This document shows positions 8,375 through 61,256 of a stretch of DNA of 64,000 nucleotides, one piece after another (the stretch's first letter is position 1; each line of letters opens with the position of its first letter). A program made the position numbers and the translations under genes. The stretch is taken from NCBI GenBank assembly GCA_963580285.1, contig OY757014.1:101124072-101188071 (forward strand), read 5' to 3'. Under the pieces are notes generated by a model. That model searched no databases. It had not been told where the DNA came from and worked only from the letters and a program-made list of their open reading frames with translations. The stretch comes from Lucinisca nassula (Eukaryota; Mollusca; Bivalvia; Lucinida; Lucinidae).

Positions 8375-8560
8375 TAGCTCTTGTCCTTTTGGATCATTGA
8401 TTCCACTGTGGGGTTTTAAAATATTTGAGTGACACTGATATGGCCTAATTGACCGAAGCTATCTAGTCTGACACATTAGAAACGTGCACACTCCATAGTT
8501 TTCTATTCTGCGCTGCATTGTTTTCTTCCAAAGGATGACCCTTTTATAGAACATATTATA
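8375..8560 (+). repeat. Dispersed repeat, uninterrupted copy of the one split at 50305-50790
   Basis: Shares GATCATTGATTCCACTGTGG, AATATTTGAG, CTAGTCTG and CTTTTATAGAACATAT with the two parts at 50305-50366 and 50656-50790. That locus has an L-family insertion in the middle. Confidence 0.5.
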
Positions 8561-8921: not shown

Positions 8922-11459
<2,538 letters not shown>

Positions 11460-14474: not shown

Positions 14475-15120
14475 GCAAAATTGCCCCCAGAACTTCAGTT
14501 AAATAAAGCAAATTCTTCTAATACCGCGGCCCCATTTGTTGGATTTACATCTATCTATTGTAGATGGGTTTGTTTCGTGCAAAATTTATGATAAACGCGC
14601 TGACTTTGATTTTGAGATTGTAAATTTTTCTTTTTTGGATGGTGCTGTTCCTCGTGCGCCATCCTATGGCGTTTATATTTCGCAATTAATATGATCTGCT
14701 AGAGTGTGTAGTCATGTAACTGACTTCAACACTCGAAATAAATTATTAACGGCTAAACTTCTTAATCAGGGTTATCGGTACCATAAACTACGCAAAGCCT
14801 TTCAAAATTTTATAGACGCCATTCTGATTTAATTTCAAAATTCAATATTGGACTTAAATCTCTTCTGCAACAAGGTCTATCGGAACCCGAATTTTATGGT
14901 GACTTAGTATATAAATTTAGAAAAATATATAACCACAATTTCTTCAGTACCAAATTTCGTAAAATCATTATTCGATATAAAAAGATTGGGTACAACATGG
15001 ATGTTATACGACAGACTGCATGCATGGTAGTTAATCCAATCACGGTTGGCAACTTTGCTTCCCACTTTAATGCACGCCGGTGGGTCAGGCCTCATATTCT
15101 ATGACGGTTCCAACGTAAAG
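14475..15120 (+). pseudogene. L-family retroelement: C-terminal part of reverse-transcriptase-like protein, broken
   Basis: Fragments of the same protein tail appear in order: PPELQLNKANSSNTAAPF, then (after a frameshift near 14540) IYDKRADFDFEIVNF, LDGAVPRAPSYGVYISQLI, a stop, HVTDFNTRNKLL, GYRYHKLRKAF, a frameshift, then SLLQQGLSEPEFYGDLVYKF and IIRYKKIGYNMDVIRQTACM. This tail is common in retroelement proteins of marine invertebrates. The FLDL...YDKRDDF...YISQLIRFAR stretch looks like the thumb region after an RT core, which is my inference. The RT core itself is absent (5' truncation). The + strand copy is followed by its 3' UTR. Confidence 0.72.
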
Positions 15121-15705
15121 GCTTATTGAGAATTAGAGAGATCTAATTCAAGGTAATGTTGGTTGGTGCCTGATACTCTGTCTCTTGTCGGGCCCATCGG
15201 AGTCTAACAGTTGGTTTTCTTTTGCTCCAGCATTTCAGTGGTTTCTTGCTGTCGAGTCCTCACCGTTGTCTCACATCCGTGGTTCTTTGATTATGTGTGT
15301 TCACGGAGATATTGCACTGATGAGTTAGGTGGCCTTCATGCGGACTGAACAAATTATTTGTCTAAATCGCGACGGAAGTAAGGGCGAGGATTGTGGCCAC
15401 GTAAAATCGATTTAAGCCCCTCCCCCCACCCCAGTGGAAATCTTTCCACTGACCGTTCCAAGGCGGTTCTTCTGTGGCGGTTTATTTATGTTGTTGTTTG
15501 TTACTTACTGTGTGTATCACTTTTGTCTTTTCATTTTGGATGGCCATTTTTGTGGGAAAGCAACTGTCCTTATGGCTCTCCTTTGTTTGGGTTTCCATTA
15601 TGGTCTGGTCGCTTAATGTTTGTGTTTCTTTCCCTTTGGTGTCTTTGATGGGTGGAGTAAGTTAATTGTATCGATTCCTGATCTTTGTTTTACTTCTACT
15701 TTACA
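15121..15705 (+). repeat. L-family 3' UTR of the copy at 14475
   Basis: Continuous with the RT-like pseudogene. It carries the conserved blocks CTCCAGCATTTCAGTGGTTT, CATGCGGACTGAACAAATT, AAATCGATTTAAGCCCC and GGCGGTTCTTCTGTGGCGG, and ends at TGTTTTACTTCTACTTTAC. There is no poly-A tail. The open frames at 15391-15665 recur in other copies as 3' UTR shadows. Confidence 0.75.
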
Positions 15706-19950: not shown

Positions 19951-22774
19951 AGAGGACCATGATGGTCCTAAATCGCTCACCTGAGGTAAGATATTTACAT
20001 TCTTAATATTTAAGTTTGACAATGTAGATGCTACAAGTTGTTTGATGCTATTATCTGAACACTCTTCGTAGAGATTGACGATTGAAGCAAAAATCGTGGC
20101 CTCCAGATGCTGTATAAGGTTTTCGAGGAATTTGACCTAGTGGCCTAGTTTCTTACCTGACATGATCAATATTTGAACTTGACCCAGATATCATCAAGAC
20201 AAACATTCTGGTAAAGTTTCATGAAGATTGAAGTGAAATTGAAGTCTCTAGAGGGTGAACAAGGGTTTCAAGGAACTTGACCTAGTGACCTAGATTCTGA
20301 CTTGCCATGACCCATATTCCAACCTGACTCAGATATCATCAAGTTAAATATTCTGGTAAAGCTTCATGAAATTTGAAGCAAAACTACTGTCTCTAGAGGG
20401 TGAACAAGGATTTCAAGGAATTTGACCTAGTGACCTAGTTTTTACCTGATATGACCCATATTCAAACTTGACCCAGATATCATCAAGACAAACATTCTGA
20501 TAAAGTTTCATGAAGATTGAAGCAATATTGTGGTCTCTAGAGGATGTACAAGGTAAATGTTGATGACGCACGTCACATGATGAATGATGCACGACGCACT
20601 TACGACGGACAAAAGATGATCACAAAAGCTCACCTTGAGATTTGCTCAGGTGAGCTAAAAATTGAGGTTTCTAGAGTATAAACAAGGTTTTTCTATGATT
20701 TGACCTACTGACCTACTTTTTGAGCTCAGATGACCCATATTGGAACTTGCCCTCGATATTGTAGATATGATCATTCTCAGCAAGTTTGATGATGATTGGA
20801 CCAAAACTGTGGCCTCTAGAGTGTTAACAAGGTTTTTCTATGATTTGACTTACTAACCTACTTTTTTAATCCAAATGACCCATATTCGAACTTGACCTAG
20901 ATATTGTAGAGATGATCATTCCGAGCAAGTTTGATGATGATTGGACCAAAACTGTGACCTCTAGAGTGTTAGCAAGGTTATTCTATGATTTGACTTACTG
21001 ACCTATCTTTTGATCCCACATTACCATATTTGAACTCGACTGAGATATTGTCAGGATGATCATTCTCAGCAAATTTAAGGATGATTGGACCAAAACTGTG
21101 GACTCTAGAGTCTTAACACAGTTTTCATTGATTTGACCTACTGACTTACTTTTTGACCTGACATGACCAATATTATACTCGACCAAGATATTGACAGGAT
21201 AATCATTCTGAGCAAGTTTGAGGATGATTGGACCAATACAGTTGCCTCTAAAGTCTTAACAAGGTTTTTCTATGATTTGACCCACTGACCTACTTTTTGA
21301 CCCGAAATAACCTATATTTGACCGAGATTTTTCAGGATGATCATTGGAGCAAATTTGAGGATGATTGGACCAAAACTGTGGCCTTTAGAGTCGTAACAAT
21401 GTTTTTCTATGATTTGACCTGCTGACCAACTTTTTGATCCCATATGACCTGTATTCGAACTTGACCGAGATATTGTCAGGATGATCATTCTGAGCAAAAT
21501 TGAGGATGATTGGACCAAATCTGTGGCCTCTAGAGTCGTAACCATGTTTTTCTATTATTTGACCTGCTAACCGCCTTTTTGATCACATATGACCTGTATT
21601 CGAACTTGACCGAGATATTGACAGGATGATCATTCTGAGCAAAATTGAGGATGATTGGACCAAAACTGTGGCCTCTAGAGTCTTATCAAAGTTTTTTCTA
21701 CGATTTGACCTGCTGACCTACTTTTTGACCCGACTTGAACCATATTCGAACTTGACCGAGATATTGTCAAGATGATCATTCTGAGAAAGTTTCAGGATGA
21801 TTTGACCAAAATTGTGGCCTCCAGAGTCTTAACAAGGTTTTTTTATGATTTGGCCTGCTGACCTACTTTTTGTCCCGACATATTCGTACATGACCAAGAT
21901 ATTGACAGAATAATCATTCTGAGGAAGTTTGAGGATGATTGGACCAAAACTGTAGCCTCTAGAGTCTTAACAATGTTTTCTTATGATTTGACCTACTGAC
22001 CTACTTTTTGACCCGAAATGACCCGTATTTGAACTTGACTGAGATATTGTCAGGATGATCATTCTGAGCACATTTGAGGATGATTTGACTGAAACTGTGG
22101 CCTCTAGAGCGTTAACAAGGTTTTTCTATGATATGACTTGGTGACCTACTTTTTGAACCGACATAACCCATATTCGAACTTGACTGAGATATTGTCAGGA
22201 TGATTATTCTGAGCAAGTTTCAGGATGATTGAACCAAAACTGTGGCCTCTAGAGCCTTAACAAGGTTTGTCTATGATTTGACCTGCTGACCTACTTTTTG
22301 ACCCGACATGACCCATATTCGAACTTGACCGAGATATTGTCAAGTTGATCATTCTGAACACGTTTGAGGATGATTTGACAAAAACTGTGGCCTCTAGAGT
22401 CTTGACAAGGTTTTTCTATGATTTGACCTGCTGACCTACGTTTTGACTCGACATGACCCGTATTCGAACTTGACCGAGATCTTGTGGGGATGATCATTCT
22501 TCGCAAGTTTCAGGATGATTGGACCAAAACTGTGGCCTCTAGAGTCTGAACAAGGTTTTTCTATGATTTGACCTACTGACCTACTTTTTGACCCGACATA
22601 ACCCATATTTAACCTTGACCCAGATACTATTACGGCAAACATTCTGGTAAAGTTTCATGAAGACATAAGCAAAACTGTAGTCTCTAGAGTCTTAACAAGG
22701 TAAATGTTGACGACGCACGACGCACGAAAGGTGATCACAAAAGCCCAGCTCGAGCTTTGCTCAGGTGAGCTAAA
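19951..22774 (-). mobile_element. Helentron-like element C inserted in an L-family copy; about 136-bp tandem core
   Basis: Read on the - strand it starts TTTAGCTCACCTGAGCAAAG, has GTGATCACCTTTCGTGCG and CGTGCGTCGTC, then about 15 core units (GACCTACTTTTTGACCCGAC, GGATGATCATTCTGAGCA, ACTGTGGCCTCTAGAGTC in + sense), a more diverged part at 20000-20650, and ends with the 3' hairpin GGACCATCATGGTCC and TCT. The host L-family sequence is interrupted between the two A of CAAACAACC (T|T on the element strand) with no duplication, as expected of Helitron2/Helentron transposition. An internal GCTCACC...GGTGAGC pair near 20630-20655 suggests two units joined end to end. Confidence 0.68.
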
Positions 22775-23169: not shown

Positions 23170-24250
23170 CATTTTCAGGATCTGCATATAGATAAATGCA
23201 ACACAAATGTGACGGCTGTATAAAGTCTCCTCGTACATCAGCATAGAGCTGATTATATATTCTTGTTCTTTGGTATCATTGAGTGCATTTAGAATCATTT
23301 TGAAAATAGAGTTCTACTTAAGCCGGTTCAAGAGGGCGTGGCCGTGTTCCACATTTCAGGACTCATGCCGTGTTTTTCTCTCAGAGACATCTCCCCCTTC
23401 CCGACTAATACTATATGCAAGTCGGGTAAGTTGGGTATCACATTTTCACATGTTTATTATGACCTTGACCATAAAATACCGCGGATAGACCAATAAAGTA
23501 ATGCTCAGTGACGCACTCGCTAGTTAATTAGAGGTTATTAGAAGTCTATACTAAAATTTTCAATTTAAAAATGGGATTTTTTATTTAAATACTGGGCTGA
23601 AAATAAAAATCTGCATCAGATTTTAATCAAATAATAAGTTTCAAACGTTTTTCTGGCTGGAAAAATAAGTATTTTAAAGATCAATCATTTCGAACGGAAC
23701 TAACAGATATATGTATATTGAATTAAAGTAGTACTCCAGGTAAAGCTAGCAATGCCACCTGTTGTGAGCAGAGCAGAGTCATTAGTGGAGATAGATGATG
23801 CCAGTAGCCAATACCATCTGGTTAAATTACCAATTAATCATGAATGTTTGGTCATTTTTCGTAAAGAAAAGAAAAAAAAAGAAGAAAAAAACACGTCATG
23901 TAGTCATGAACAGACTCAATAAAGCCCAGCCTGCTATTTTCGTTTATTAGGTGTATTCTTTGCTTCTAAGGGGTCTACCTATTCACAACTTATTTATCGT
24001 CACTGCAGCTGGTGTTGTGTCGTGTAGTGGCCATAAAGAGTCTCCCCGTACATCACCATAGCGCAGATGTTTTCTGGTCCTTTGGGATCATTGTATTCAA
24101 TAGAGTTCTGCTTAAGCCAGTACTAGAGGGTGTGGTCGGTGTTGCACATTTCAGTATTGGTCATGAACTGACACAATAAAACCGAGCCTGTTATATTCGT
24201 TTATTTGGTGTATCCTTTGCTTCCGAGGGATGTAACTATTCAGAAATTAT
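23170..24250 (+). repeat. Dispersed repeat with two units, partly homologous to the 383-bp hammerhead repeat
   Basis: CATAAAGAGTCTCCCCGTAC, TGGTCCTTTGGGATCATTG, GAGTTCTGCTTAAGCC and GAGCCTGTTATATTCG occur twice (23200-23345 with 23915-23995, and 24020-24245). The block CACTGCAGCTGGTGTTGTG at about 24003 is shared, with about 45 following bases, with the reverse complement of 41800-41860. A third fragment lies at 24838-24905. Confidence 0.5.
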
Positions 24251-26686: not shown

Positions 26687-27817
26687 CATCACGTGAACAT
26701 GTCCGTGACATGAAGCCCCCCCCCCCCCCAACCCCACTTTATATAGAGACTAGAAATGCGTCCATAGGACACGGATGCCCCCGCCCGAAAATATGTCTAT
26801 GTTCGTATTCATCCATAGAAAGTTATTGACAGTGTTTAAGTTTTGGACCCTTTTTATGCCATTTGACCTCCAAGTATGACCTTGGAGGTACGGATCTGGG
26901 TTTGCACGTGACACATTGTCTCATGATGGTTAACATTTCTTCAAAATAATTTCAAAATCCATCCGAAAATAAGTAAGTTATTGCCTGCGTTTAAGTTTCG
27001 GACCCTTTTTTGACCTTTGACCTCCAAGTATGACCTTGACCTTGGAGGTACGGACCTGGATTTTGCATGTGACACATCGACTGATGATGGTTAACATTTC
27101 TACAAAGTAAGTTCAAAATCCATCCAGAAATAAGAAAGTTATTGACTGTGTTTAAGTTTCGGACCCTTTTTTTGACCTTTGACCTCCAAGTATGACCTTG
27201 ACCTTGGAGGTACGGACCTGGGTTTTGCAGGTGACACATCGACTCATGAAGGTTAACATTTCTCCAAAGTAATTTCAAAATTCATCCAGAAATAAGAAAG
27301 TTATTGACTGCGTTTAAGTTTCAGACCCTTTTTTTGACCTTTGACCTCTAAGTATGACCTTGACATTGGAGGTACGGACCTGGGTTTTGCACGTGACACG
27401 TCGTCTCATGATGGTTAACATTTCTGCTGAGTAATTTTAAAATCCATCAAGAAATAAGGAAGTTATTGACTGCGTTTAAGTTTCGGATGCACGGACGGAC
27501 GCACGGCCGGACGAACGGACGGACAGACGGACGGACGGACGGACATGGGCAACGCTATATGCCCTTTCCACCATTCTTCGAATGGCGGGGGCATAAAAAC
27601 TGGGGTTTACGGGGTATTCATTATTTTTCTTATTTCTGCTCCAAGACATAGGTTGTGGGTACTCGTTAGAGCCGCCTAAATGAGGCGGTTCTAACGAGCA
27701 CACACAACCTATGTTATGAACATTTATTAGACAACTATCACGGTTTTTTCATCAGAAAAGTAGCCATTTTGGAGATGTGAAAATGCACTATATCGTACGG
27801 GAGAGTTATCGTAATCC
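26687..27817 (+). mobile_element. Foldback MITE, copy 4, split by a tandem-repeat element
   Basis: Left piece 26687-26750 and right piece 27599-27817 join into a CATCACGTGAAC-type MITE with palindrome CTCGTTAGAGCCGCC/GGCGGTTCTAACGAG. The inserted element lies between. Confidence 0.65.
26751..27598 (+). mobile_element. Tandem-core element inserted in MITE copy 4
   Basis: Inverted ends ATGCCCCCGCC (26781) and GGCGGGGGCAT (27583). Four roughly 159-bp core units (TTTGACCTCCAAGTATGACC, GGAGGTACGGACCTGG, GATGGTTAACATTTCT), then a (GGAC)n stretch at 27490-27545 and GGCAACGCTATATGCCC. Related ends occur at 32930-33025. Confidence 0.65.
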
Positions 27818-33794: not shown

Positions 33795-34049
33795 ATAAGC
33801 AAATTCTTCTTATACCGAGGCCCCGATTTTGGATTAACATGTTTGTATTGTTTATGATAATCTTGATTTTGAGATTGTAAATTTTCCTTTATTGGCTGAT
33901 GATGTTCCTTGTGCGGAATCATATGGCGTTTATATTTAACAATTGATTACATTGCCAGAGTGTCTAGCCATGTAACTGAATTCAACACTCGTATTAAATT
34001 GTTAACTCCTAAACACCTCAATTTATCGGTATCATAAACAACGCAAAAT
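33795..34049 (+). pseudogene. L-family RT-like tail, piece 1 of a copy split three ways
   Basis: KANSS-type start, then EIVNF, VYI and HVTEFNTRIKL-like fragments with stops. The copy breaks at 34049, continues at 36707-36783 and ends at 40468-41155. Confidence 0.65.
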
Positions 34050-34939
34050 AGAAGTAAAGACACTAATTAGGAATCGATACAATTAACCCACAGCTCCCAC
34101 CAGAGAGACCAAATGGATATAAACACAAACATGAAATTCCCAGTAAACACAAAACGTTATCGTAACGTTTTTCATAGGTTTCAAAATGGTTACGCAGAAC
34201 GTGACGTTTTGTAAACGTTTTGCAACCGTTTTTTTCTGTGTCGAACTGCGATGACTGTTTTTGGCAATCAGATAAAAAATACTACCCTTCTGCAAAACCT
34301 AGAACGTATTCCTTATCATGTCAAACAATTTTCGAGGAAGTTATAAAATGGTTACAGAAAAAAAAAAAAAAAAAACAAATTTTTACTAACGTTGTGAAAA
34401 CGTTCTATAAATGTTGCAGAATTTGTTGATATAAATGTGCGTCTTCTTTCCGCCAATATTCTTAGAACAAAGAACAAAGAAAATCGAACGCCTCACCGAA
34501 TTTGTGTTTTTCCGGCTCATTTTGCTCCCGGTAACTTTGATTTGATGATTTAATTGCATGTGGTTCTTATTTTATTTGCACCGGATAATAATATAATGTA
34601 ACTCTAATGCGCGATTGTTTGAATTTGGTGGTTGTCACATGTTTTCGCGACTAATGAAGTAAACACACATCTGTTGCATGACAATATTCGTAAATAGTGA
34701 CATGTTTTCGGTTTACTGAAGGTGACGACAAGTTTTCTCACAGCATTTGATTAATTTTATGACCAAATTTCTGATATTTATTCAAAAGTAATTGATCAAA
34801 ATGTTTCGTTTGTACCAAACGATGTAAAAACGTTCTTGAAACATTCAATCTACATCGGTGTGTGCATTTGTTGAACATATTCATATATCAAAAATAGCAT
34901 TTTCGTGATGAAAATTTGTAGAAGTTTTCTCATCACTGC

Positions 34940-36874: not shown

Positions 36875-39042
36875 TTTAGCTCACCGTCACGTAGTGACGA
36901 GGTGAGCTTTTGGGATCACTTTTTGTCCGTCGTGCGTGCGTGCGTGCGTGCGTGCGTGCGTCCGTGCGTAAACAATTTCTTTAAACGACATCTCCTCCTA
37001 AACCACTGATCGGATTTTGACCAAACTTCACAGGAATGATCCTTAGGTGGTCCCTTTTCAAAGTTGTTCAAATGGTTCCGGTCCGTTGCACATCTAGGTC
37101 ACAGGAGCCAAAATAGATTTTTTTCACTAAAAACTTAAAAAATCTTCTTCTCTGAAACCACAAGGCCCAGGTCTTTGATATTTGGTGTGAAGCTTCATGT
37201 AGTGGACCCCTACCAAGATTGTTCAAATTATAGTGCTGGGGCCAAAAATGCCCCCGCCCTGGGGCCCTTTGGTTTTACATAGGCTTAAATAGGGAAAATC
37301 TTTAAAAATATTCTTCTCTGAAACCACAAGGCCCAGGTCTTTGATATTTGATATGAAGCTTCATCTAGTGGACCCCTACCAAGATTGTTTAAATTATAGT
37401 GCTGGGGCCAAAAATGCCCCCGCTCCGGGGCCCTTTGGTTTTACATGGGCTTATATAGGGAAGAGCTTTAAAAATCTTCTTCTCTGAAACCACAAGGCCC
37501 AGGTCTTTGATATTTGGTATGAAGCTTCATCTAGTGGACCCCTACCAAGATTGTTCTATTTATAGTGCTGGGGCCAAAAATGCCTCCGCCCCGGGGCCCT
37601 TTGGTTTTACATAGGCCTATATAGGGAAAATCTTTAAAAATTTTCTTCTCAGAAACCACAAGGCCCAGGACTTTGATATTTGGTATGAAGTTTCATCTAG
37701 TAGACCCCTACCAAGATTGTTCAAATTTTATTGCTGGGACAAAAAATGCCCCCGCCACGGTGCCCTTTGGTTTTGCATTGGCTTATATAGGGAAAATCTT
37801 TAAAAATCTTCTTCTCTGAAACCACAAGGCCCAGGTCTTTGATATTTGGTATGAAGCTTCATCTAGTGGACCCCTACCAAGATTGTTCAAATTATAGTGC
37901 TGGGGCCAAAAATGCCCCCGCCCAAGGGCCCTTTGGTTTTACAAAGGCTTATATAGGGAAAATCTTTAAAAATCTTCTTCTCTGAAACCACAAGGCCCAG
38001 GTATTTGATATTTGGTATGAACTTTCATCTAGTGGACCCTTACCAAGATTGTTCAAATTATAGTGCTGGGACAAAAAATGCCCCCGCCACTTGGCCCTTT
38101 GGTTTTACATTGGCTTATATAGGGAAAATCTTTAAAAATCTTCTACTCTGAAACCACAAAGCCCAGGTCTTTGATATTTGGTATGAGGCTTCATCTAGTG
38201 GACCCCTACCAAGATTGTTCAAATTATAGTGCTGGGGCCACAAATCCCCCGCTCCGGGGCCCTTTGGTTTTACATAGACTTATGTAGAGATAATGTTTGA
38301 AAATCTTCTCCTCTGAAACAGCAAGACCCAGGTCTTTGATATTCGGTGTGAAGCTTCATCTAGTGGACCTCTACCAAGATTGTTCAAATTATAGTGCTGG
38401 GGCCAAAAATGCCCCCGCCCCAGGGCCCTTTGGTTTTACATAGGCTTATATAGGGAAAATCTTTAAAAATCTTCTTCTCTGAAACCACAAAGCCCAGATC
38501 TTTGATACTTGGTATGAAGCTTCATCTAGTGGACCCCTACCAAGATTGTTCAAATTATAGTGCTGGGACAAAAAATGCCCCCGCCACTGGGCCCTTTGGT
38601 TTTACATTGGCTTATATAGGGAAAATCTTTAAAAATCTTCTTCTCTGAAACCACAAAGCGCAGGTCTTTGATATTTGGTATGAAGCTTCATCTAGTGGAC
38701 CCCTACCAAGATTGTTCAAATTATAGTGCTGGGGCAAAAAATGCCCCCGTCCCGGGGCCCTTTGTTTTTACATAGGCTTATAGAGGCAAAATCTTTAAAA
38801 ATCTTCTTCTCTGAAACCGCTAGGCCCAGGTCTTTGATATTTGATGTGTAGCTTCATCTAGTGGACCTTTGCCAAGATTGTTCAAATTATAGCCTTTGTT
38901 GATGTTTGGTATGAAGCTTCACCTTTAAGACCTCCCTCATTATTATGCACATTAAAGCCCTGGGGCCAATAATGGCCCTCCCTGGGGCCCACTTGTTACA
39001 CTATGGATCACGTGAGCGATCCAGGGCCATCATGGCCCTCTT
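36875..39042 (+). mobile_element. Helentron-like element D1, about 165-bp tandem core (11 units)
   Basis: 5' hairpin TTTAGCTCACCGTCACG / CGTAGTGACGAGGTGAGC, then (GTGC)n and CGTAAACAATTTCTTTAAACG. Core units contain CTCTGAAACCACAAGGCCC, GTATGAAGCTTCATCTAGTG and CAAAAATGCCCCCGCCC. The 3' end is GTGAGCGATCCAGGGCC with hairpin AGGGCCATCATGGCCCT. No protein is encoded. Confidence 0.7.
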
Positions 39043-40305
39043 GTGATTAATATTAGGATCACTTTTTGTCTGTCATCCGTGCGTAAACAATTTCTTCAAA
39101 CGGCATCTCCTCCTAAACCACTAATTGGATTTTGACCAAACTTCACAGGAATGATCCTTAGGGGGTCCCCTTTCAAAGTTGTTCAAATGGTTCCGGTCCG
39201 TTGCACATATAGGTCACAGGAGCCAAAAATAGATTTTTTCACCGAAAACTTAAAAAAATCTTCTTCTCTAAAACCGCAAGGCCCAAGTCTTTGATATTTG
39301 GTATGAAGTTTCATCTAGTAGACCCCTACCAAAATTGTTCAAATTATAGTGCTGGGGCCAAAAATGCCCCCGCCCTGGGGCCCTTTGGTTTTACATGGGC
39401 TTATATAGGAAAATCTTCAAAAATCTTCTCTGAAATCACAAGGCCCAGGTCTTTGATTTTTGGTATGAAGCTTCATCTAGTGGACCCCTACCAAGATTGT
39501 TCAGATTATATTGCTGGGGCCAAAAATGCCCCCGCTCCGCGCCCTTTGGTTTTACATGGGCTTATATAGGTAAAACCTGTAAAAATCTTCTTCTCTGAAA
39601 CTGCAAGGCCCATGTCTTTGCTATTTGGTATGAAGCTTCATCTAGTGGACCCCTACCAAGATTGTTCAAATTATAGTGCTGGGTCCAAAAATGCCCCCAC
39701 TCCGGGGCCCTTTGGTTTTATATGGGCTTATATAGGGAAAATCTTGAAAAATCTTCTTCTCTGAAACCACAAGGCCTAGGTCTTTGATATTTTGTATGAA
39801 GTTTCAGCTAGTGGACCTCTACCAAAATTGTTCAAATTATAGCCCTGAGGCCAAAAATGCCCCTGCCTCGGGGGCCCTCTGATTTTACATAGTCTTTAAT
39901 CGGGAAAATCTTTAAAAATCTTCTTCCGTGTAACCACAAGGCCTAGGTCTTTGATATTTGGTGTGAAATTTCATCTAGTGGACGTCTATCAAGAATGTTC
40001 AATTATAGCCCTGGGGCCAAAAATGCCCCCGCCCCGAGACCCTTTGGTTTTACATAGTCTTATATAGGAAAATCTTTAAAAATCTTCTTCTCTGAAACTG
40101 CAAGGCCCATGTCTTTGATATTTGGTATGGAGCTTCATCTAGTGGACAATTATAGCCTTTGTTGATATTTGGTATGAAGCTTCACCTTTTTAGACCTCCC
40201 TCAACATTATGCACATTAAAACCTTGGGGTCAATAATGGCCCTCCCCGGGGCCCACTTGTTACTCTATGGATCAGGTGAGCGATCCAGGGCCATCATGGC
40301 CCTCT
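39043..40305 (+). mobile_element. Helentron-like element D2, head-to-tail with D1
   Basis: Directly after the D1 3' end, a second copy starts at GGATCACTTTTTGTCTGTC (5' hairpin missing). It has six core units and the same 140-bp 3' segment and hairpin, ending CCCTCT|TG. Confidence 0.7.
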
Positions 40306-40467
40306 TGTTTCGTATTTTTGCAAGAAAAAATGTGAGCAGCTTTTGTAAATGCAAAAGCTGCTCTTTTTTCAGCAAAAATAATAATATATTTGCCATAATA
40401 AATGATCAAAGTTTTAACGATATGTTAACTAACGACTTCGTTAGTTATGAACAATCGGCCCAAAATT

Positions 40468-41155
40468 TTTATGTTGACTTAGTTAATAAATTCAGAAAAA
40501 TAGATACTTGCACGGACCTCAGCAGCCAATTTGTAAAATCATTCTTCGAATTATAAAGGTTGGGTACAACATAAATGTCATACGACAGACTGCATGTATT
40601 GCAAATAACGCAATCACGATTGTCAAATTTGCTTCCCTCTGGTCGGGCCCATCGGAGGCTAACTGTTGGTTTTCGTTTGCTCCAGCATTTCAGTGGTTTC
40701 TTGCTGATGAGTTCTAAACGTTGTTTCATCTCTGTGGTGGTTTTATTTCTGGATTTTGAGTTAGGAGGCCTTCATGTGGACTGAACAAATAATTTCTATA
40801 AATCGCGACGGGTGTAAGGGCGATGTTTGCGGCCACGTAAAATCGATTTAAGCACCCCCCCCCCCCCGCCCCCATCCTCCAGTGAAATTCGTTTCACTGA
40901 CCGTTCCAAGAAGTTCTTCAGACGCGGTTTATTTTTTATGGTTTGTCTTTGAGTGTGTGTATATCTTATACTTTTCTCTTTCGATAGCCAATTGGCCATT
41001 GTTTGGGAACGGAACTGTCCTTTTGGCTTTCCGCTGTTGATGTTTCTATTGGGGTCCAGTTATTTCATGTTTGTGTTTCTCTCCCTTTAGCGTCTCTGAT
41101 GGGAGCTGTGGGTTAATTGTATCGATTCCTGTTCGTTGCTGTCACTTCTATTTTG
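40468..41155 (+). pseudogene. L-family RT-like tail end and 3' UTR, piece 3
   Basis: Resumes with TTTTATGTTGACTTAG (FYVDLVNKFRK), FVKSFFEL, then GYNINVIRQTAC, and the full 3' UTR to CTGTCACTTCTATTTTG near 41155. A small internal deletion joins KFASL to the GGTCGGGCCC block. Confidence 0.68.
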
Positions 41156-41539
41156 TATGATTCATTTAAGGATTTAGGGTTGTTTATTTTAAATAGAAAT
41201 GACGATGACTAATTAAATACAAGTTTCACTTATTTGATATCTTTTTAAATGCACATTGAAGCGGAACAATTTAATTAAAGTAGAAAGTGTTTGCCAAATG
41301 TTATATTTGTTTAAAAATAGTATTCCATTTAAGCACCTGCTATTTCCAGCATGGGATTCTTTACAGGTAATCTGGAAGGTCAGCGCACAGTAAAACGCTT
41401 AATCCTTTTTGCTCAAGGCATAATTGTCAACAATAGTTGGGAATGATTCCCCCGAGTGGAATTCGTTTCTCTGACCGTTCCAATAAAAATAAAAAATGAG
41501 TCCCTTTAAGAGCAATGAAAACATTCTGAGAAAGAAGAT

Positions 41540-41585
41540 GGGTCATACTACGTAGTTTCGGCTAATAAAGCATCATCAGTGACCC
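41540..41585 (-). ncRNA. Hammerhead ribozyme, type I, unit 1
   Basis: Same fold as unit 3 with one change: the base of stem II is T-C instead of G-C. Confidence 0.8.
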
Positions 41586-41923
41586 TGCAATGGTCCGACA
41601 AAAAAAGCCAGAGGAAACATACTGCAATTGTGCGAATTTCGAACAGGCAGTCGATTCATAGACTGATATAAATCAAAATGGGGTCCAAAATAATTAAAAA
41701 CCTGTCTAGAATATGAGTCTTAACCAATAATTTATTTCTGATTTCTCAGAATATTCACGCTGATCTCAAAGGAGCAAAAGTAAAATATAAACTGCACTAT
41801 GGTTGATGTACGGGGAGACGTTTTACGGCCGCCACACGGCACAACACCAGCTGCAGTGAAGGCAAATAAAAATCAAAAATGAGTTCCTTTAAGAGCAATG
41901 AAAACATTCATAAGAAAGAAGAT

Positions 41924-41969
41924 GGGTCATACTACGTTGTTTCGGCTAAAAAAGCCTCATCAGTGACCC
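41924..41969 (-). ncRNA. Hammerhead ribozyme, type I, unit 2
   Basis: Core intact and stem I perfect. Stem III carries ACAACGTAGT in place of ACTACGTAGT (one lost pair) and the stem II loop is TTTTT. Confidence 0.75.
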
Positions 41970-42307
41970 TGCAATGGTCCGGCAAAGAAAGCCAGCGGAA
42001 ACAGACTGCAATTTTGCGAATGTCGAACAGGCAGTCGATTCATAGACTGATATAAATCAAAATGGGGTCCAAAATAATTAAAAACCTGTCTAGAATATGA
42101 GTCTAAACCAATAATTTATTTCTGATTTCTCAGAATATTCACGCTGATCTCAAAGGAGCAAAAGTAAAATATAAACTGCACTATGGTTGATGTACGGGGA
42201 GACGTTTTACGGCCGCCACACGGCACAACACCAGCTGCAGTGAAGGCAAATAAAAATAAAAAATGAGTTCCTTTAAGAGCAATGAAAACATTAATAAGAA
42301 AGAAGAT

Positions 42308-42353
42308 GGGTCATACTACGTAGTTTCGGCTAATAAAGCCTCATCAGTGACCC
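42308..42353 (-). ncRNA. Hammerhead ribozyme, type I, unit 3 (canonical)
   Basis: On the - strand: stem I GGGTCA / TGACCC, core CTGATGA, stem II GGCT-TTATT-AGCC, GAA, stem III ACTA-CG-TAGT, and cleavage triplet GTA. The predicted cut is between 42314 and 42313. All invariant core positions are present. Stem III is a 10-nt palindrome, too short to be stable alone but able to form a dimer. Confidence 0.9.
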
Positions 42354-42876
42354 TGATCCGGCAAAGAAAGCCAGAGGAAACATACTGCAATTTGCGCATT
42401 TCGAACAGGCAGTCGATTCATAGACTAATATAAATCAAAATGGGGTCCAAAATAATTAAAAACCTGTCTAGAATATGAGTCTAAACCAATAATTTATTTC
42501 TGATTTCTCAGAATAAGACGGCTCTTCTGTCGGGTTTTATTTTTGTTATGATTTGTCTTTGGGTGTGTGTGTCGCTTCTATCATTTTGTTTTGGATAGCC
42601 AGTTGGCCATTTTGTGGGAAAGTAACTATCCTTTAGGCTATCTGCTATAATTGATGTTTCCATTAGGGTCTAGTTGTTTCATGTTTGTGCTTCTTTCCCT
42701 TTGGTGTCTATTATGGGAGCTGTGGGTTCGATTCCTGATCGTTGCCTTCACTTCTATTTTTCATATGAAATTTATGGAACTCGATAGGGGCTTGCTTCAC
42801 TAATTTCATATTAAATGACCACTCGTGTAATATCCTAAATATATCACAATGGCTGATTAATCTTCTTATGTTTCAG

Positions 42877-43534: not shown

Positions 43535-43568
43535 AACGTAGAAAAACCGAGGCAAGTGAATTATACAA

Positions 43569-43704
43569 AAAAGAGAAATGACATCACACGGAAAACACAG
43601 TAAATAATATTATTCCCTTTATTCCCCTGATGAGTTATAAACGAAACCGGTTGGGAATAATATTATTTACTGTGTTTTCCGTGTGATGTCATTTCTCTTT
43701 TATA
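43569..43704 (+). mobile_element. Palindrome with a hammerhead at its apex
   Basis: Arms of about 48 bp (AAAGAGAAATGACATCACAC... and ...GTGTGATGTCATTTCTCTTT) flank a 35-bp centre. The centre holds the hammerhead core described at 43619-43660. Confidence 0.8.
43619..43660 (+). ncRNA. Hammerhead ribozyme, minimal type I, second family
   Basis: Stem I TTATTCCC / GGGAATAA (8 pairs), core CTGATGA, stem II GTT-ATA-AAC, GAA, stem III ACCGGT with no loop, triplet GTT, predicted cut after T43652. Every invariant core base is present. Stem III cannot close in a monomer, so a dimer form is expected. The same right strand could instead pair with the distal 48-bp arm, giving two competing folds. Confidence 0.72.
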
Positions 43705-44355: not shown

Positions 44356-44812
44356 GAGGTCAACTGTAAAGTAGACAAATCACGAGCGCGAAGTGCGAGC
44401 GCGCATGATTTGTCTACTTACAACTGACCGACATACTATTCGCTATTGATGTTTATCATATGACGTCGCGTCTGAGAGTGTTATAACGCCATGCAATATT
44501 TTCGATAATCCACTAGTGGATTAAATATGCAAATTAGCTAGATACGTTCCGTAACGTTACATGTACGATGTCCTTAACGACGTCGCGTTTACTAATGGCG
44601 GAATATTGACAATTTTGTAAACAATCGTGAATAAAATGCGTTTTAAATGCCATATGATAAATAGAATCTTGCATTCGTGCTCATGTATTATTGAATTTAT
44701 TAAACTCGTTGAAGAAAAGGGATAACATGCTCAGCAAAGCCTCGCATGTTATCCCTTTTCCTCAACGAGTTGAATAAATTCAATAATACATGAGCACTCA
44801 TGTAAGATCCTC
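44356..44812 (+). mobile_element. Foldback element with two hairpins (copy 1)
   Basis: Hairpin 1 at 44356-44430 (GTAGACAAATCA / TGATTTGTCTAC, loop of GCGCGAAGTGCGAGCGCGC). Hairpin 2 at 44677-44797 (GTGCTCATGTATTATTG... / ...CAATAATACATGAGCAC). Between them are TGACGTCGCG, CCACTAGTGGATTA, ATGCAAATTAGC and GTAACGTTAC. An inverted copy lies at 60861-61256. Confidence 0.7.
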
Positions 44813-44922: not shown

Positions 44923-45552
44923 TTTCAAGAATGACTAATGGATACAGGAGAGAGCTGCATAATGCGACATAAATTTCAAAGCTAGTTATTATGTTTTATG
45001 TTGCGGAGGTGGGGAGGTTGGAGGATTATGAAACAGTTTAAGTCAATATTTAAAACGTTTCCGATCAATTTCTATAACACGTCTAAAGTGTGTGATCTCG
45101 GCAGCTTAACGGAGGTAAAATTCCAATATTACTATGGCAACAACCAGCTGCGAGAGGTTTGATACAGAATATCGAAAAATTATTTACCTAGGCGTGTAAT
45201 AGTCATTACATAAATACCGCTATGGTGCATAGCCGTAATTTATGCCATTCCTATTCAGGCATTTGGGAAAGGGAACGCAATGCGCCTTTTGGTTAAATAG
45301 ATCCGTACGTTCATATGGGTGTAAGCAAATAAAAACAGCCAAATGTGGTGAAAGAGTCTAATCAAGACTAAAATAGACATGATAAGGTTAATCAGTAATG
45401 TTGTGATGAACGACTGTTATCAAGACTGTAATTAGCAAATAAGGTAATCCATCAATCAAACGATACCACATACTAAAATACATATTCCGTTCTGCAAAAC
45501 ATGTGGGGCACATAGGCCATAAAACTGGCAAAATGATCTTTTATCACGCTGC
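44923..45552. other. Unclassified intronic DNA
   Basis: No gene or family recognised. Confidence 0.35.
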
Positions 45553-45692
45553 AAATAAAAATCAAAAATGAGTTCCTTTAAGAGCAATGAAAATATTCAT
45601 AAGAAAGAAGATGGGTCATACTACGTAGTTTCGGCTAATAAAGCCTCATCAGTGACCCTGTAATGATCCGACAACGAAAGCCTAGGAAACAT
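45553..45692 (-). mobile_element. Retrozyme-like 383-bp repeat, solo 5'-truncated copy
   Basis: Same 3' terminus in RNA sense as the array (GATTTTTATTT side at 45553). Only about 140 bp remain, including the complete hammerhead. Confidence 0.75.
45613..45658 (-). ncRNA. Hammerhead ribozyme, type I, solo copy
   Basis: Identical fold and sequence to unit 3 at 42308-42353, including GGCT/AGCC stem II and the ACTACGTAGT stem III. Confidence 0.88.
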
Positions 45693-45697
45693 AAGAA

Positions 45698-48734: not shown

Positions 48735-48815
48735 ATATACGTTCTGCGCAAATTAGGAATCGGTAAGATTCCGGAATTATCCTGCGCAAAGTAGGAAGTC
48801 TCAATAATATATAGC
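48735..48815. repeat. AATTCCGGAATT-type palindromic fragment
   Basis: TGCGCAAATTAGGAATCGG, GATTCCGGAATTATCC, TGCGCAAAGTAGGAA; related to 49665-49755 and 51450-51570. Confidence 0.5.
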
Positions 48816-49645
48816 CGCAATGACTTCAGCACCCGTTGTAGTAAAATCATTTTCGATATAAAACGATGGCGTACAACATAAATGTTATACGAAAGACTGC
48901 ATGCATGGTAGTTAACCCGATCACGGTTGACAACTTTGCTTCCCTCTTTAATTGCACACCGGTGGGTCAGGCCTAAGATTCTATGGCGGTTCCAACGTTA
49001 AGGCTTATGTTGATTTGTACCTGATTCTCTATCTCTGGTCGGGCCTATCGGAGTCTAACTGTTGGGTTTTCTTTGCTCCAGCATTTCAGTGGTTTCTGGC
49101 TGTCGAGTCCTCACTGTTGTTTCATCTCTGTGACTGTTTGATTTTTGTGGTCATGGAGATGTTGCACTGATGAGTTTGGAGGCCTTCATGCGGACTGAAC
49201 AAATTATTAGGGCCCCGCACTGAAAGTGTGGGTGCCCTATAGTCTGTCTGTCTGTCTGTCTACAAATTTCTGATAGCGCTGCCGGGGCCCTAGTCAGTTT
49301 CACTGACAGCTCTAGTTTGTCTTAATCGCGACGGAAGGAAGGGCGAGGATTGTGGCCACGTAAAATCGATGTAAGCCCCCCAGTGGAATTCGTTTCCGCT
49401 GACGGTTCCAAGGCGGTTCTTCTGTCGGGGTTTATTTTTGTTATGGTTTGTCTTTGGGTGTTTGTGTCGCTTATATTATTTTATTTTGGATAGCCTATTG
49501 ACAATTTTGTGGGAAAGTAACTGTCCTTTTGGCTTTCCGCTGTTGATGTTTTCCTAAGGGTCTGTTGTTTTATGTTTGTGTTTTTGCCCTTTGGTGTCTC
49601 TGATTGGAGCTGTGGGTTAATTATAACGATTCCTGATCATTGCCC
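48816..49645 (+). repeat. L-family copy: end of RT-like tail and 3' UTR, with a small insertion
   Basis: Starts in the coding end (ACATAAATGTTATACGAAAG), then the full 3' UTR to TGCCCCCACTTCTACTTC. Interrupted at 49209-49318. Confidence 0.72.
49209..49318 (+). mobile_element. Small Helitron-like insertion
   Basis: About 110 bp inserted into an L-family TTATTTGTCT site. It has (TCTG)n, the pair AGGGCCCC / GGGGCCCT, a 3' hairpin GTCAGTTTCACTGAC and terminal CTAGT next to T. No duplication beyond T runs. Confidence 0.5.
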
Positions 49646-49664
49646 CCACTTCTACTTCACTTTG

Positions 49665-50304: not shown

Positions 50305-50790
50305 TTCTTGTCCTTTCGATCATTGATTTCATTGTGGAAATTCGAAAATATTTGAGGGCCTGATAAGTAGAAGTAAAACAAAGATCAGGAATCGAAAGAA
50401 ATACAAACATTAAGCGACCAGACCATAATGGTAACCTAAACAAAGGAAGGCCATAAGGACAGTTACTTTCCCACAAAATGGCCATATGGCCATCCAAAAT
50501 TAAAAGACACAAGTGATACACACAGTAAGTAACAAACAACAACATAAATAAATCGCCACAGAAGAACCGCATTGGAACGGTCAGTGGAAAGATTTCCACT
50601 GGGGGGCTTAAATCGATTTTACGTGGCCATAATCCTCGCCCTTACTTCCGTAAGGTCTTATTGTCCTAAACTAGCTAGTCTGGCACCGAAAAACTTGCAC
50701 ACTATATCGTTTTAGTTCTATAGTGTACTCCATGTTTCAAAGGGATTCCCTTTATTAGAACATATTTCATGGGTATTACGTTTTCTTTAT
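50305..50790 (+). repeat. Dispersed repeat split by an L-family insertion
   Basis: Pieces 50305-50366 and 50656-50790 match the uninterrupted copy at 8375-8560. Confidence 0.5.
50367..50655 (-). repeat. L-family 3' UTR copy
   Basis: - strand 3' UTR from GGAAGTAAGGGCGAGG (right) to the 3' terminus at 50367. 5' truncated. Confidence 0.75.
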
Positions 50791-51702: not shown

Positions 51703-52115
51703 TATAGAAGTGAAGGCAATGATCAGGTATCGATAAAATTAACCCACAGCTCTCAGCTCCAATCAGAGACAAAACAGGGAAAGAAACACAAACATGAAAC
51801 AACAGACCCTAATGGAAACATAAATAGCGGGAAGCCAAAAGGACAGTTACTTTCCCACAAAATGGCCAATTGGCTATCCAAAACAAAATAATATAAACGA
51901 TACAAACACTCAAAGACAAACCATAACAAAAATAAAACACGACAGAAGAACCGCCTTGGAACGGTCAGTGAAACGAATTCCACTGGGAGCTTAAATCGAT
52001 TTTACGTGGCCACAATCCTTGCCCTTACTTCGGTCGCGATTTAGACAAATCATTTGTTTTGTCCGCATGAAGGCCTCCTAACTCATCAGTGCAACATCTC
52101 CGTGAAGTTTGCTTA
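51703..52115 (-). repeat. L-family 3' UTR copy
   Basis: Left terminus TAGAAGTGAAGGCAATGATC; right end in the CATCAGTGCAACATCTCCG block. Confidence 0.78.
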
Positions 52116-52319
52116 TGTTTTAAAGAAAGCAAACTAGGCTTCCTACACCATATTGGTTAACTAAACTTCACAAAAAACATACAAAGCATGGTTGATTGCA
52201 ATTTCTATGTTCTTGTACCACTACTGAACTTTCTAAATCATCAACTACATGCCTTACTGCCATCAAAATCATAAGATTAAATACTGTGGTAAAGTCTATG
52301 GAAGGTCAGGGAGAAATAT

Positions 52320-52777
52320 GTTTCGGTCTATTAAAAATTCGAATGAGGATGGTGATGTTCCTCGTGTGGCATCGTATGACGTTTATATTTCGCAATTAAT
52401 TCAATTTGCCAGAGTTTCTAGTCATGTAAATGACTACAACACTCGCAATAAATTGATAACTCCTTGCCATCTTCTTCATGGTTATCGGTATCATAAACTA
52501 CACAAAGCTTTTCTAAGTTTCCGATTTAGTTTCAAAATACAATGTTGGACTTAAAACTTTCCTGAAACAAGTTCTGTCGGAACCCGAATTTTATTCTGAT
52601 TTAGTATATAAATTTAGAAAAGTATATACACTCAATGACTTCAGTACCCAATTTCGTAAATTCATGCTTCGATATAAAAAGATTGGGTACAACATAAATG
52701 TTATAGGATAGACTGCATGCATGGTAAGTTAACTCAATCACGGCTGATAACTTTGCCTCCCCCTTTAATTTCACACC
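52320..52777 (+). pseudogene. L-family RT-like tail, in a copy split by two SINEs and a mariner
   Basis: EDGDVPRVASYDVYISQLIQ, HVNDYNTRNKLITP, HGYRYHKLHKAF, then after a frameshift LKQVLSEPEFYSDLVYKF and MLRYKKIGYNINVI with a stop. The longest readable RT-like tail here but still broken. Its 3' UTR continues at 53070-53180, 53433-53613 and 54941-55270. Confidence 0.7.
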
Positions 52778-53613: not shown

Positions 53614-54940
53614 CGAGGGGTGATCAATAAATTCGAGAACTTTTGCCATAACGTAATAATGAAAAACGATACTCACGAATACTGTTTATTATTTCTCGAC
53701 ATAGGATCCCTTGACCTTGATACACTTTTGACATCTGTTCATCCACGTGCCGAACACGTGACGTAAGCCGTCACGTGACACCTCCCTAAGCGCTACCGTT
53801 ATAGCAGCCCCTAGTTCATCTCGCGTCTCATATTTTACTCCGCGCAGCTGATCCTTCACATTTGGAAACAGGAAAAAGTCACAGATAGCCAAGTCTGGGC
53901 TATAAGGTGGATGCGGTAGAGTTTCGATACCCAGTTCCTTGAGGGTGGACGTCACAAGTTGACTCACGTGCACTGGAGCGCTGTCTTGGTGCAAAATGAA
54001 CCCCGACCTTACAAGTCAGGGCGTTTATCTCGAATAGCTCTCTGCAACTGGAATTTAATTAGATGTGCTTAGTATTCACTATTGACTGTAGTTTTAGCTG
54101 GCACCATGTGATTGAACACAATTCCTTTTGTGTCACAAAATATGATGGACATAACTTTACCCACTGACTTGAAAAGTCAGGCTTTTACAGGCGATGGTGA
54201 CGATGCATGCTTCCAGACGGAACTCTGTTGCTTGCTTTCCGGCTCAAAGAAGTGGAACCATGTTTCATTACATGTTATGATTTTATTCCGGAATCCATCA
54301 CCTTCCTCTGCATATCGGTTGAGAATATCTCGACAGATCTGTTTCCTTACGCCCTTCTGGTCAGGCTGAAGTAGACGGGGTACCTACCTTGCACATACGC
54401 AGCTTAATTCAATCTTTTCCGTCAGAATCTCTTGGGCTGTACCATTACTTAAGTAAAAGTTCTCCGCTACATGTCTAATAGTCACTCGCCTGCTTTCCAT
54501 TACGTATTGTTCAATGGCAGCACAGTTTTCGTCTGTAGTATACTTCACAATGCGGCCAGATCGGGCGTCATCTTTGGTCGATGTTTTTCCGTCACTGAAG
54601 CGATGCCACCATTTATGAATACAAGATTTTGAAAATGCTGCTTCTCCGTATACATTTTGGAGATCCTCTTTGATTTCGCTCATAGGCTTCCCTAATTTTA
54701 CGTAGAATTTAATGATAGCCCTCTGTTCTGCAACAACGTCGTCAGCCATTTCTGAACGGTGAACGTAAAGTATGACATAGAAAATATAACGTCATTGAAA
54801 AACAAGTGACGTCACGAACGTAATACCTTGATGACGTTGTCCGTAACGTGCTATTCTATCGACCATATACATTTTTTTGCGATTGGTTGTATATTAAAAA
54901 AGTTATAATAAAAGTTCTCGAATTTATTGATCACCCCACG
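53614..54940 (-). mobile_element. mariner element with intact ends
   Basis: 1327 bp between TA dinucleotides at 53612-53613 and 54941-54942. Near-perfect TIRs: CGAGGGGTGATCAATAAATT at the left, and the inverse of CGTGGGGTGATCAATAAATT at the right. It sits in an L-family 3' UTR (CATG|TA...TA|TTTGTCT). Confidence 0.88.
53689..54749 (-). pseudogene. mariner transposase, frameshifted
   Basis: Starts with ATG at 54749. The N-terminal paired-type HTH runs MADDVVAEQRAIIKFYVKLG through CIHKWWHRFSDGKTST and the linker DDARSGRIVKYTTDEN; this frame stops at 54384. The middle lies in other frames with stops (ETWFHFFEPESK near 54250 is the first-Asp block). The C-terminal frame 53689-53994 reads MHQDSAPVHVS (second Asp region) and PPYSPDLAICDFFLFPNVKD, the mariner D34D third Asp. 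The element is therefore dead for transposase, although its ends look usable in trans. Confidence 0.85.
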
Positions 54941-60860: not shown

Positions 60861-61256
60861 GATCTTACATGAGTGTTCAAGTATTATTGAATTTATTAAA
60901 CGAGTTGAGGAAAAGGGATAAAATGCGAGGCTTTGCCGAGCTTTTAATCCCTTTTCCTCAACGAATTTAATAAATTCAATAATACATGAGTACGAATGCA
61001 AGATTCTATTTTTCATATGACATTTTAAACAAATTTATTCACGATTGTTTACAAAAATGTCAATCTTCCGCCGTTAGTAAACGCGACGTCATTAAGGACG
61101 TCGTACATGTAACGTTACGGGACGTATCTAGCTAATTTGCATATTTAATCCATTAGTGGATTATCGAAAATAATACATGACGTTATTACACTCTCAGATG
61201 GGACGTCATATGATAAATGTATATAAATTGTGTGTGATGTAATTTTGGTCAGTGGC
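60861..61256 (-). mobile_element. Foldback element (copy 2, inverted relative to 44356-44812)
   Basis: Hairpin at 60861-60995 (ATTATTGAATTTATTAAAC / TTTAATAAATTCAATAATAC), then GCGACGTCATTAAGGACGTC, GTAACGTTAC, GCTAATTTGCATATTTAATC and CATTAGTGGATTATCG. Confidence 0.7.

Follow-up and report, generated by a model that had tools for sequence, protein, structure and literature searches.

RTZ-1, an abundant metazoan retrozyme of Lucinisca nassula with a nearly fixed internal integration start

The RTZ-1 array and its hammerheads

The window, a 64-kb stretch of genomic DNA from the bivalve Lucinisca nassula, contains a head-to-tail repeat at 41482-42515 (period 384 bp, 2.7 copies, 95% matches by TRF), here named RTZ-1. 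BLAST with the second unit resolved units of 383 and 384 bp, together with a solo copy whose limits are 45555-45691 when unit 2 is the query and reach as far as 45551-45693 with the consensus unit. Tandem 383-bp units with minus-strand hammerheads had been predicted here, and both TRF and BLAST confirmed the units. The features are listed below, with q denoting positions in the unit.

41483-42515, minus strand: RTZ-1 array of 2.7 units, RNA sense minus
41483-41865, minus strand: array unit 1, 383 bp, from BLAST of unit 2
41866-42249, minus strand: array unit 2, 384 bp, from BLAST of unit 2
42250-42515, minus strand: array unit 3, partial, from BLAST of unit 2
41482-41500, minus strand: array end at which integration is fixed (AATAAAAAT..., rich in U in the RNA sense)
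41540-41585, minus strand: hammerhead of unit 1, one stem II mismatch (T/C)
41924-41969, minus strand: hammerhead of unit 2, one stem III mismatch (A/A)
42308-42353, minus strand: intact hammerhead of unit 3, with cleavage predicted between 42314 and 42313
about 45555-45693, minus strand: solo RTZ-1 copy, 5'-truncated, about q1-140, from BLAST with unit 2 or the consensus
45613-45658, minus strand: hammerhead of the solo copy, intact by motif and pairing

Other repeats lie in the same window. TRF also reported tandem arrays at 37129-38892 and 39254-40147 (periods of 166 and 166 bp) and at 20670-22701, 9623-10890 and 26817-27487 (145, 144/290 and 162 bp, respectively). A minimal hammerhead-like motif on the plus strand at 43622-43657 (UUCCC CUGAUGA GUUAUAAAC GAAA CCGG UU GGGAA) is centred in a MITE-like inverted repeat of ~130 bp (about 43568-43702), whose arms prolong stem I. 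The minus strand carries a long near-perfect hairpin at 44694-44779, part of a repeat also present near 60908-61149, with a weak match to mir-1891 (31.8 bits, gathering score 70), and at 54387-54791 a fragment bearing HTH_48, a domain of Mos1-type transposases.

All core bases checked are kept in the four RTZ-1 hammerheads of the window, and all 15 stem pairs are present only in those at 42308-42353 and 45613-45658. The intact motif reads GGGUCA CUGAUGA GGCU UUAUU AGCC GAA ACUACGUAGU A UGACCC in the RNA sense. The original prediction placed a complete type I hammerhead in each of three units; its positions, strand and cores are correct, but the wording was slightly generous, since units 1 and 2 are each mispaired once. 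A fourth hammerhead is present at 45613-45658 on the minus strand as proposed, and the ribozymes of unit 3 and the solo copy are indeed intact in every core base checked and every stem pair. The covariance-model search suggested at the same time gave a weak to negative result, because no Rfam model matched at its gathering score in the whole 64 kb, and at a lax threshold Hammerhead_3, rather than the type I model, matched three of the four motifs below its gathering score of 48.5 (solo copy 31.3, unit 2 21.6 and unit 3 21.2 bits). The type I hammerhead of each unit was thus recognized from its core, stems and pairing, with Rfam silent at the gathering score. The minimum free energy (MFE) fold of a single RTZ-1 hammerhead is not the active form; the dimer (-39.3) adopts a double-hammerhead fold in which stem III has 10 bp.

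Allowing up to three mismatches, the 46-nt hammerhead matched the 2.93-Gb genome 15192 + 15299 = 30,491 times, against 0 + 0 matches for the same sequence read backwards, and the hammerheads of the window are therefore not due to chance. Motif, fold and copy number together provide strong support for the ribozyme. Fully intact hammerheads made up 109 of the 138 inspected, a proportion inflated by the origin of 36 of the 80 sampled arrays in exact-hammerhead clusters. Among 44 arrays, variant cells amounted to 0.55% in q1-58, 0.95% in the hammerhead, 2.7% in q105-200, 1.4% in q201-300 and 0.38% in q301-383; the hammerhead is conserved, yet q1-58 and q301-383 are more so.

Metazoan non-LTR retrozymes are described, in the available text of Cervera and de la Pena 2020 (PMC7229834), as LTR-free, GC-poor tandem repeats with units of 150-450 bp and a type I hammerhead. 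The class is further characterized by self-cleavage, by linear as well as circular RNA in tissue and, where TSDs occur, by lengths above 4 bp. The 383/384-bp unit falls within this size range, and the GC content of the two 2-kb bins holding the array is low (0.39 and 0.335). Circular RTZ-1 RNA has a stable predicted fold (MFE -91.4 versus -75.4 for shuffles, sd 4.9, z = -3.25). Array starts adjoin 80 distinct left flanks, which indicates dispersed copies of a mobile element rather than a plain satellite. This dispersal and the agreement with the published description, as far as the latter is available, support the retrozyme identity put forward originally, with RTZ-1 as a new and very abundant member of the metazoan non-LTR class. 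The retrozymes of Mytilus galloprovincialis (350-390 bp), Acropora and axolotl (same source) share with it the unit size and the tandem type I hammerhead, and the class as a whole also shares low GC, high copy number and absence of an LTR. RTZ-1 differs in showing a target of AA^RYC and an integration start that is nearly fixed (see below); its likeness to the mussel family is one of description. Plant LTR retrozymes, from the available text of PMC4918200, are likewise non-autonomous hammerhead elements presumed to spread via circular RNA, but they differ in their type III hammerheads, LTR, PBS and PPT, 4-bp TSDs and Gypsy machinery; the RTZ-1 hammerhead is of type I, and the net change at its empty sites is variable. 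No relatives were found in prokaryote genome contigs.

Boundaries, homogeneity and targets of the arrays

Array boundaries were determined for arrays L001-L050 and the first 40 exact-hammerhead regions of contig C1 (L051-L090), using as query a unit permuted to start mid-unit and removing repeated left flanks. Of the 92 array pieces, six extend beyond the left limit of the retrieved sequence, which leaves 86 resolved left ends. Of these, 80 start at q377-q10 next to unrelated flank, and 76 at q379-q4; the outlying starts among the 80 include q377 once and q10 three times, and some of the spread is due to target bases that match the unit by chance. The cluster persists with the query permuted to mid-unit, and the C1 sample alone places 36/36 resolved array starts in the q377-q10 stretch. 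Three of the six exceptions (L013, L018 and L077) are second pieces of interrupted arrays in which the phase continues, and the others are divergent repeats in L025, L034 and the minus strand of the window near 24,000.

Right ends, in contrast to this nearly fixed start, are variable, with counts of 11, 6, 9, 7, 12, 4, 4, 4, 3, 8, 8 and 4 per 32 nt of the unit; their phases deviate slightly from uniformity (KS p = 0.043). Array lengths in the C1 sample, which was selected by exact hammerhead, are not exponential (KS p 0.011) and average 468 nt, little above one unit. Read on the minus strand, which carries the hammerhead, these boundaries mean that the RNA 3' end is nearly constant and that 5' truncation varies. 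The cut site of the hammerhead lies 64 nt upstream of this fixed end, and in the window array reverse transcription would have started at 41482-41500. Among the listed titles and abstract openings of published, non-subscription papers, none dealt with a fixed integration start of retrozymes; this internal start, with its evidence on the mode of insertion, is the new part of the present analysis.

No array among the 80 ended at q62-67, so the arrays run through the cut site. First-lap run-off copies would be missed in the C1 sample, because its arrays were picked for carrying the hammerhead. This gap is covered by genome-wide counts: q59-104 matched 30,491 times, only 13% below the 35,184 matches of q12-57, which argues against any large class of copies stopping at the cut site.

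Mean divergence was 1.6% within arrays (the 42 with at least two units of at least 100 compared columns) and 3.46% between arrays (2628 pairs). In 6/42 arrays the units do not differ at all, and several arrays carry variants common to all their own units, such as L070-, with three shared and no partial variants over five units. Divergence within the array exceeded the between-array mean in 4/42, including the window array (3.8%), which is presumably old. We read the homogeneity within arrays as probable repeated copying of one closed circle, with gene conversion or a homogeneous multimer as possible sources of the same pattern.

The last four element bases and 18 flank bases of the right junction were scanned in the 80 arrays. 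AARYCT occurred in 22/80, compared with 2/80 and 1/80 in control stretches, and AARYC in 36/80, compared with 8/80 and 8/80. Joined flanks matched to some extent across the joint in 39/80 cases and matched well in 25; at these 25 empty sites AARYC was present in 15, against 3/25 at a control point, and the net change ranged from -10 to +14 nt, within 5 nt in 20/25. RTZ-1 insertions thus prefer AA^RYC sites. The first bases of an array often prolong the target: at the site GCAA the array reads GCAAAT, and at CAAA it reads CAAATA. Pairing of the nicked end with the UUUGC side of the circle would be expected to give this pattern. Words shared by the two flanks were mostly near the level of mispaired controls, with few long ones. 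The longest, a 28-nt word in L005, was considered as a long TSD and set aside because it lies inside a repeat.

Penelope-like elements and a second retrozyme family

The window array interrupts the 3' region of a Penelope-like element; when its two flanks are joined, they align with uninterrupted copies at 49376-49529 and 51838-51987, and the empty copies read GGTTCCAAGGCGG or near. The features concerned, with those of a second retrozyme family named RTZ-2, are the following.

14484-15702, plus strand: one of the window's several copies of a Penelope-like element, with fixed 3' end
42515-42760, plus strand: right piece of the Penelope-like 3' region interrupted by the array, from flank comparison
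8423-8557, plus strand: RTZ-2 relic, RNA sense plus
50653-50766, plus strand: RTZ-2 relic, RNA sense plus
42166-42249, minus strand: block q301-384 of RTZ-1 unit 2, adjoining the inferred start in the circle and common to other repeat families

RTZ-2 has a unit of ~235 bp and a GUC triplet, with a further example at 563-925 of L034, which served as the reference sequence. Its stem III palindrome is CTAGCTAG, that of RTZ-1 CTACGTAG. Six RTZ-2 copies (L006, L025, L034, L068 and the two in the window) share the same start base, 86-87 nt from the cut; a weak copy in L037 starts one base later, and pieces in L061 and L035 lie at other phases. The block adjacent to the start is common to RTZ-1 and RTZ-2 and folds alone as a stem-loop in RTZ-1 and two RTZ-2 sequences. 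One pair of this hairpin is changed on both sides between the families (G-C to A-U), and the covariation term over all six hairpin sequences is unfavourable (+2.11); that the start-adjacent hairpin has been kept across RTZ-1 and RTZ-2 is thus suggestive only. Repeats at 23986-24091 and 23188-23276 of the window share q280-383 with RTZ-1, and no hammerhead was detected in them.

Penelope-like fragments are numerous in the window (at 14484-15702, 40454-41154, 48796-49657, 52130-52724 and elsewhere), and some RTZ-1 arrays lie inside them. Several RTZ-1 arrays have fragments with the YLDD motif beside or around them. The protein typical of Penelope-like elements joins a reverse transcriptase to a GIY-YIG endonuclease. 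A homologue search with a Penelope-like fragment returned 7998 proteins, which were all those scored. Pfam RVT_1 matched weakly, namely P0001 (E 3.6e-4, below the curated cut-off) and 1/22 aligned homologues, and the domain search of the Penelope-like fragments showed no endonuclease domain. A PDB sequence search with the reverse transcriptase homologues gave nothing usable, and their predicted structure was itself unusable (mean pLDDT 46.6).

Downstream of the Penelope-like ORF, similarity between copies ends at about one place in most of 12 aligned copies, L036+4797 and L048+6273 stopping early. Forty matches reach to within 30 nt of this 3' end, with unrelated flanks and variable 5' ends; the reference ends there, so that reaching the end is itself a selection, and two of the matches repeat window copies. 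For the target count 28/40 were kept, excluding repeats, edges and copies abutting another element, and AARYC was found at 6/27 right junctions versus 0/27 and 1/28 in controls. One site inside the Penelope-like ORF, CATAAACTACGCAAAGCCTTTTC, has received element copies in L036, L004 and L047 as well as the RTZ-1 array of L061; a fourth candidate at this site, window 34045-34135, matches on its left side only. Reading the alignment by eye revealed an imperfect hammerhead-like motif (CACUGAUGAG...UGAAC...GUC) in the Penelope-like 3' region. Homology between the RTZ-1 start and the Penelope-like 3' end was also considered and rejected, the AGTGAAGGC match at the junction being no better than shuffles (289/500 and 227/500 reached its score).

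Reverse transcription by a purified Penelope-like enzyme begins inside the RNA, 85-92 nt beyond the hammerhead cut (111-118 nt into the ORF, with the cut at 26), and in vitro the enzyme uses uncut RNA, the hammerhead being dispensable (PMC11167929, available text). Such hammerhead-bearing elements have in common with RTZ-1 a fixed 3' end, an internal start downstream of the hammerhead, 5' truncation and tandem copies. RTZ-1 differs in being non-coding and 383 bp long, with a canonical stem III palindrome, and its AA^RYC target contrasts with the preference of the Anolis enzyme assayed, which was for ATT in AT-rich DNA (same source). A term search of the available text of PMC11167929 found the words retrozyme, circular and non-autonomous absent from it.

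A proposed insertion cycle and its alternatives

Besides the target motif, the genomic copies display a start that is nearly fixed, an end that varies, continuation past the cut site and homogeneous units within an array. These last four features fit a model in which a ligated RNA circle is reverse transcribed by rolling-circle, target-primed synthesis; the continuation past the cut site and the homogeneity bear on the circle indirectly. In the cycle that we propose, the RTZ-1 repeat would be transcribed in the minus sense as a multimer and cut by its hammerheads, and the 383-nt monomer would be ligated into an RNA circle; these three steps, transcription, cleavage and circle formation, we infer from sequence. 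An endonuclease would then nick target DNA at about AA^RYC, and reverse transcription would be primed by pairing of the AA 3' end with AUUUUUAUUU, a U-rich part of the circle located 64 nt to the 3' side of the hammerhead cut. The polymerase would pass the closed cut site, sometimes for several laps of the circle, and stop anywhere, after which the second end of the insertion would be joined with small gains or losses. We consider it likely that RTZ-1 is a retrozyme with such a circle-templated, target-primed, fixed-start cycle.

The template might instead be an uncut multimeric linear RNA with its 3' end set near q1, for example by U-rich termination, and primed in a SINE-like manner. The fixed end does carry a U-rich stretch, and the Penelope-like enzyme uses uncut RNA without need of the hammerhead in vitro (PMC11167929, available text), but the array-private variants present in all units and the 6/42 arrays of identical units would require a homogeneous source array at least as long as the copies, while the C1 arrays, in that exact-hammerhead sample, average little above one unit. 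We regard a linear template as quite unlikely. That the tandem units belong to an ordinary satellite, or to a Helitron-type rolling-circle DNA element with an incidental hammerhead, is far less credible still: head-to-tail units would suit either, and Helitron-like elements of bivalves often have tandem cores, yet the combination of a fixed with a variable end, the lack of relation between flanks, the slight net changes at empty sites and the many fully intact hammerheads, their share inflated by exact-hammerhead selection, all speak against it.

As to the enzyme behind a circle-templated cycle, the return of retrozymes to the genome was left as a proposal in the available text of PMC7229834, target-primed or otherwise, by LINEs or Penelope-like elements. 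The similar anatomy of the 3' ends, AARYC at both, one shared site and the published internal initiation (PMC11167929, in part) lead us to think that RTZ-1 probably uses the enzyme of a Penelope-like element. A LINE could instead mobilize RTZ-1 from the same kind of fixed start; L002 contains LINE-type RVT_1 genes, and TSDs of 15 bp, a LINE-like length, are reported for repeats of Nematostella (PMC4918200, available text). The small and variable changes at RTZ-1 empty sites, the scarcity of long shared flank words and the insertion site common to RTZ-1 and the Penelope-like element point away from a LINE, whose involvement we consider rather improbable.

We lean slightly towards retrozyme circles being true substrates of a Penelope-like reverse transcriptase. 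The enzyme would load on the hairpin beside the start, begin synthesis downstream of the hammerhead at a fixed internal U-rich site, as the autonomous element does, and copy the closed circle for several laps, so that an array would arise in a single rolling-circle target-primed insertion. The ~30,000 hammerhead units of this one genome give direct evidence on the mode of priming, with nearly one start, 5' truncation and passage through a closed cut site. Both the RNA position and the DNA target (GCAAAGCCTTTT) are now named for an in vitro test, and a link is drawn between retrozymes and the internal start of reverse transcription measured with a Penelope-like enzyme.
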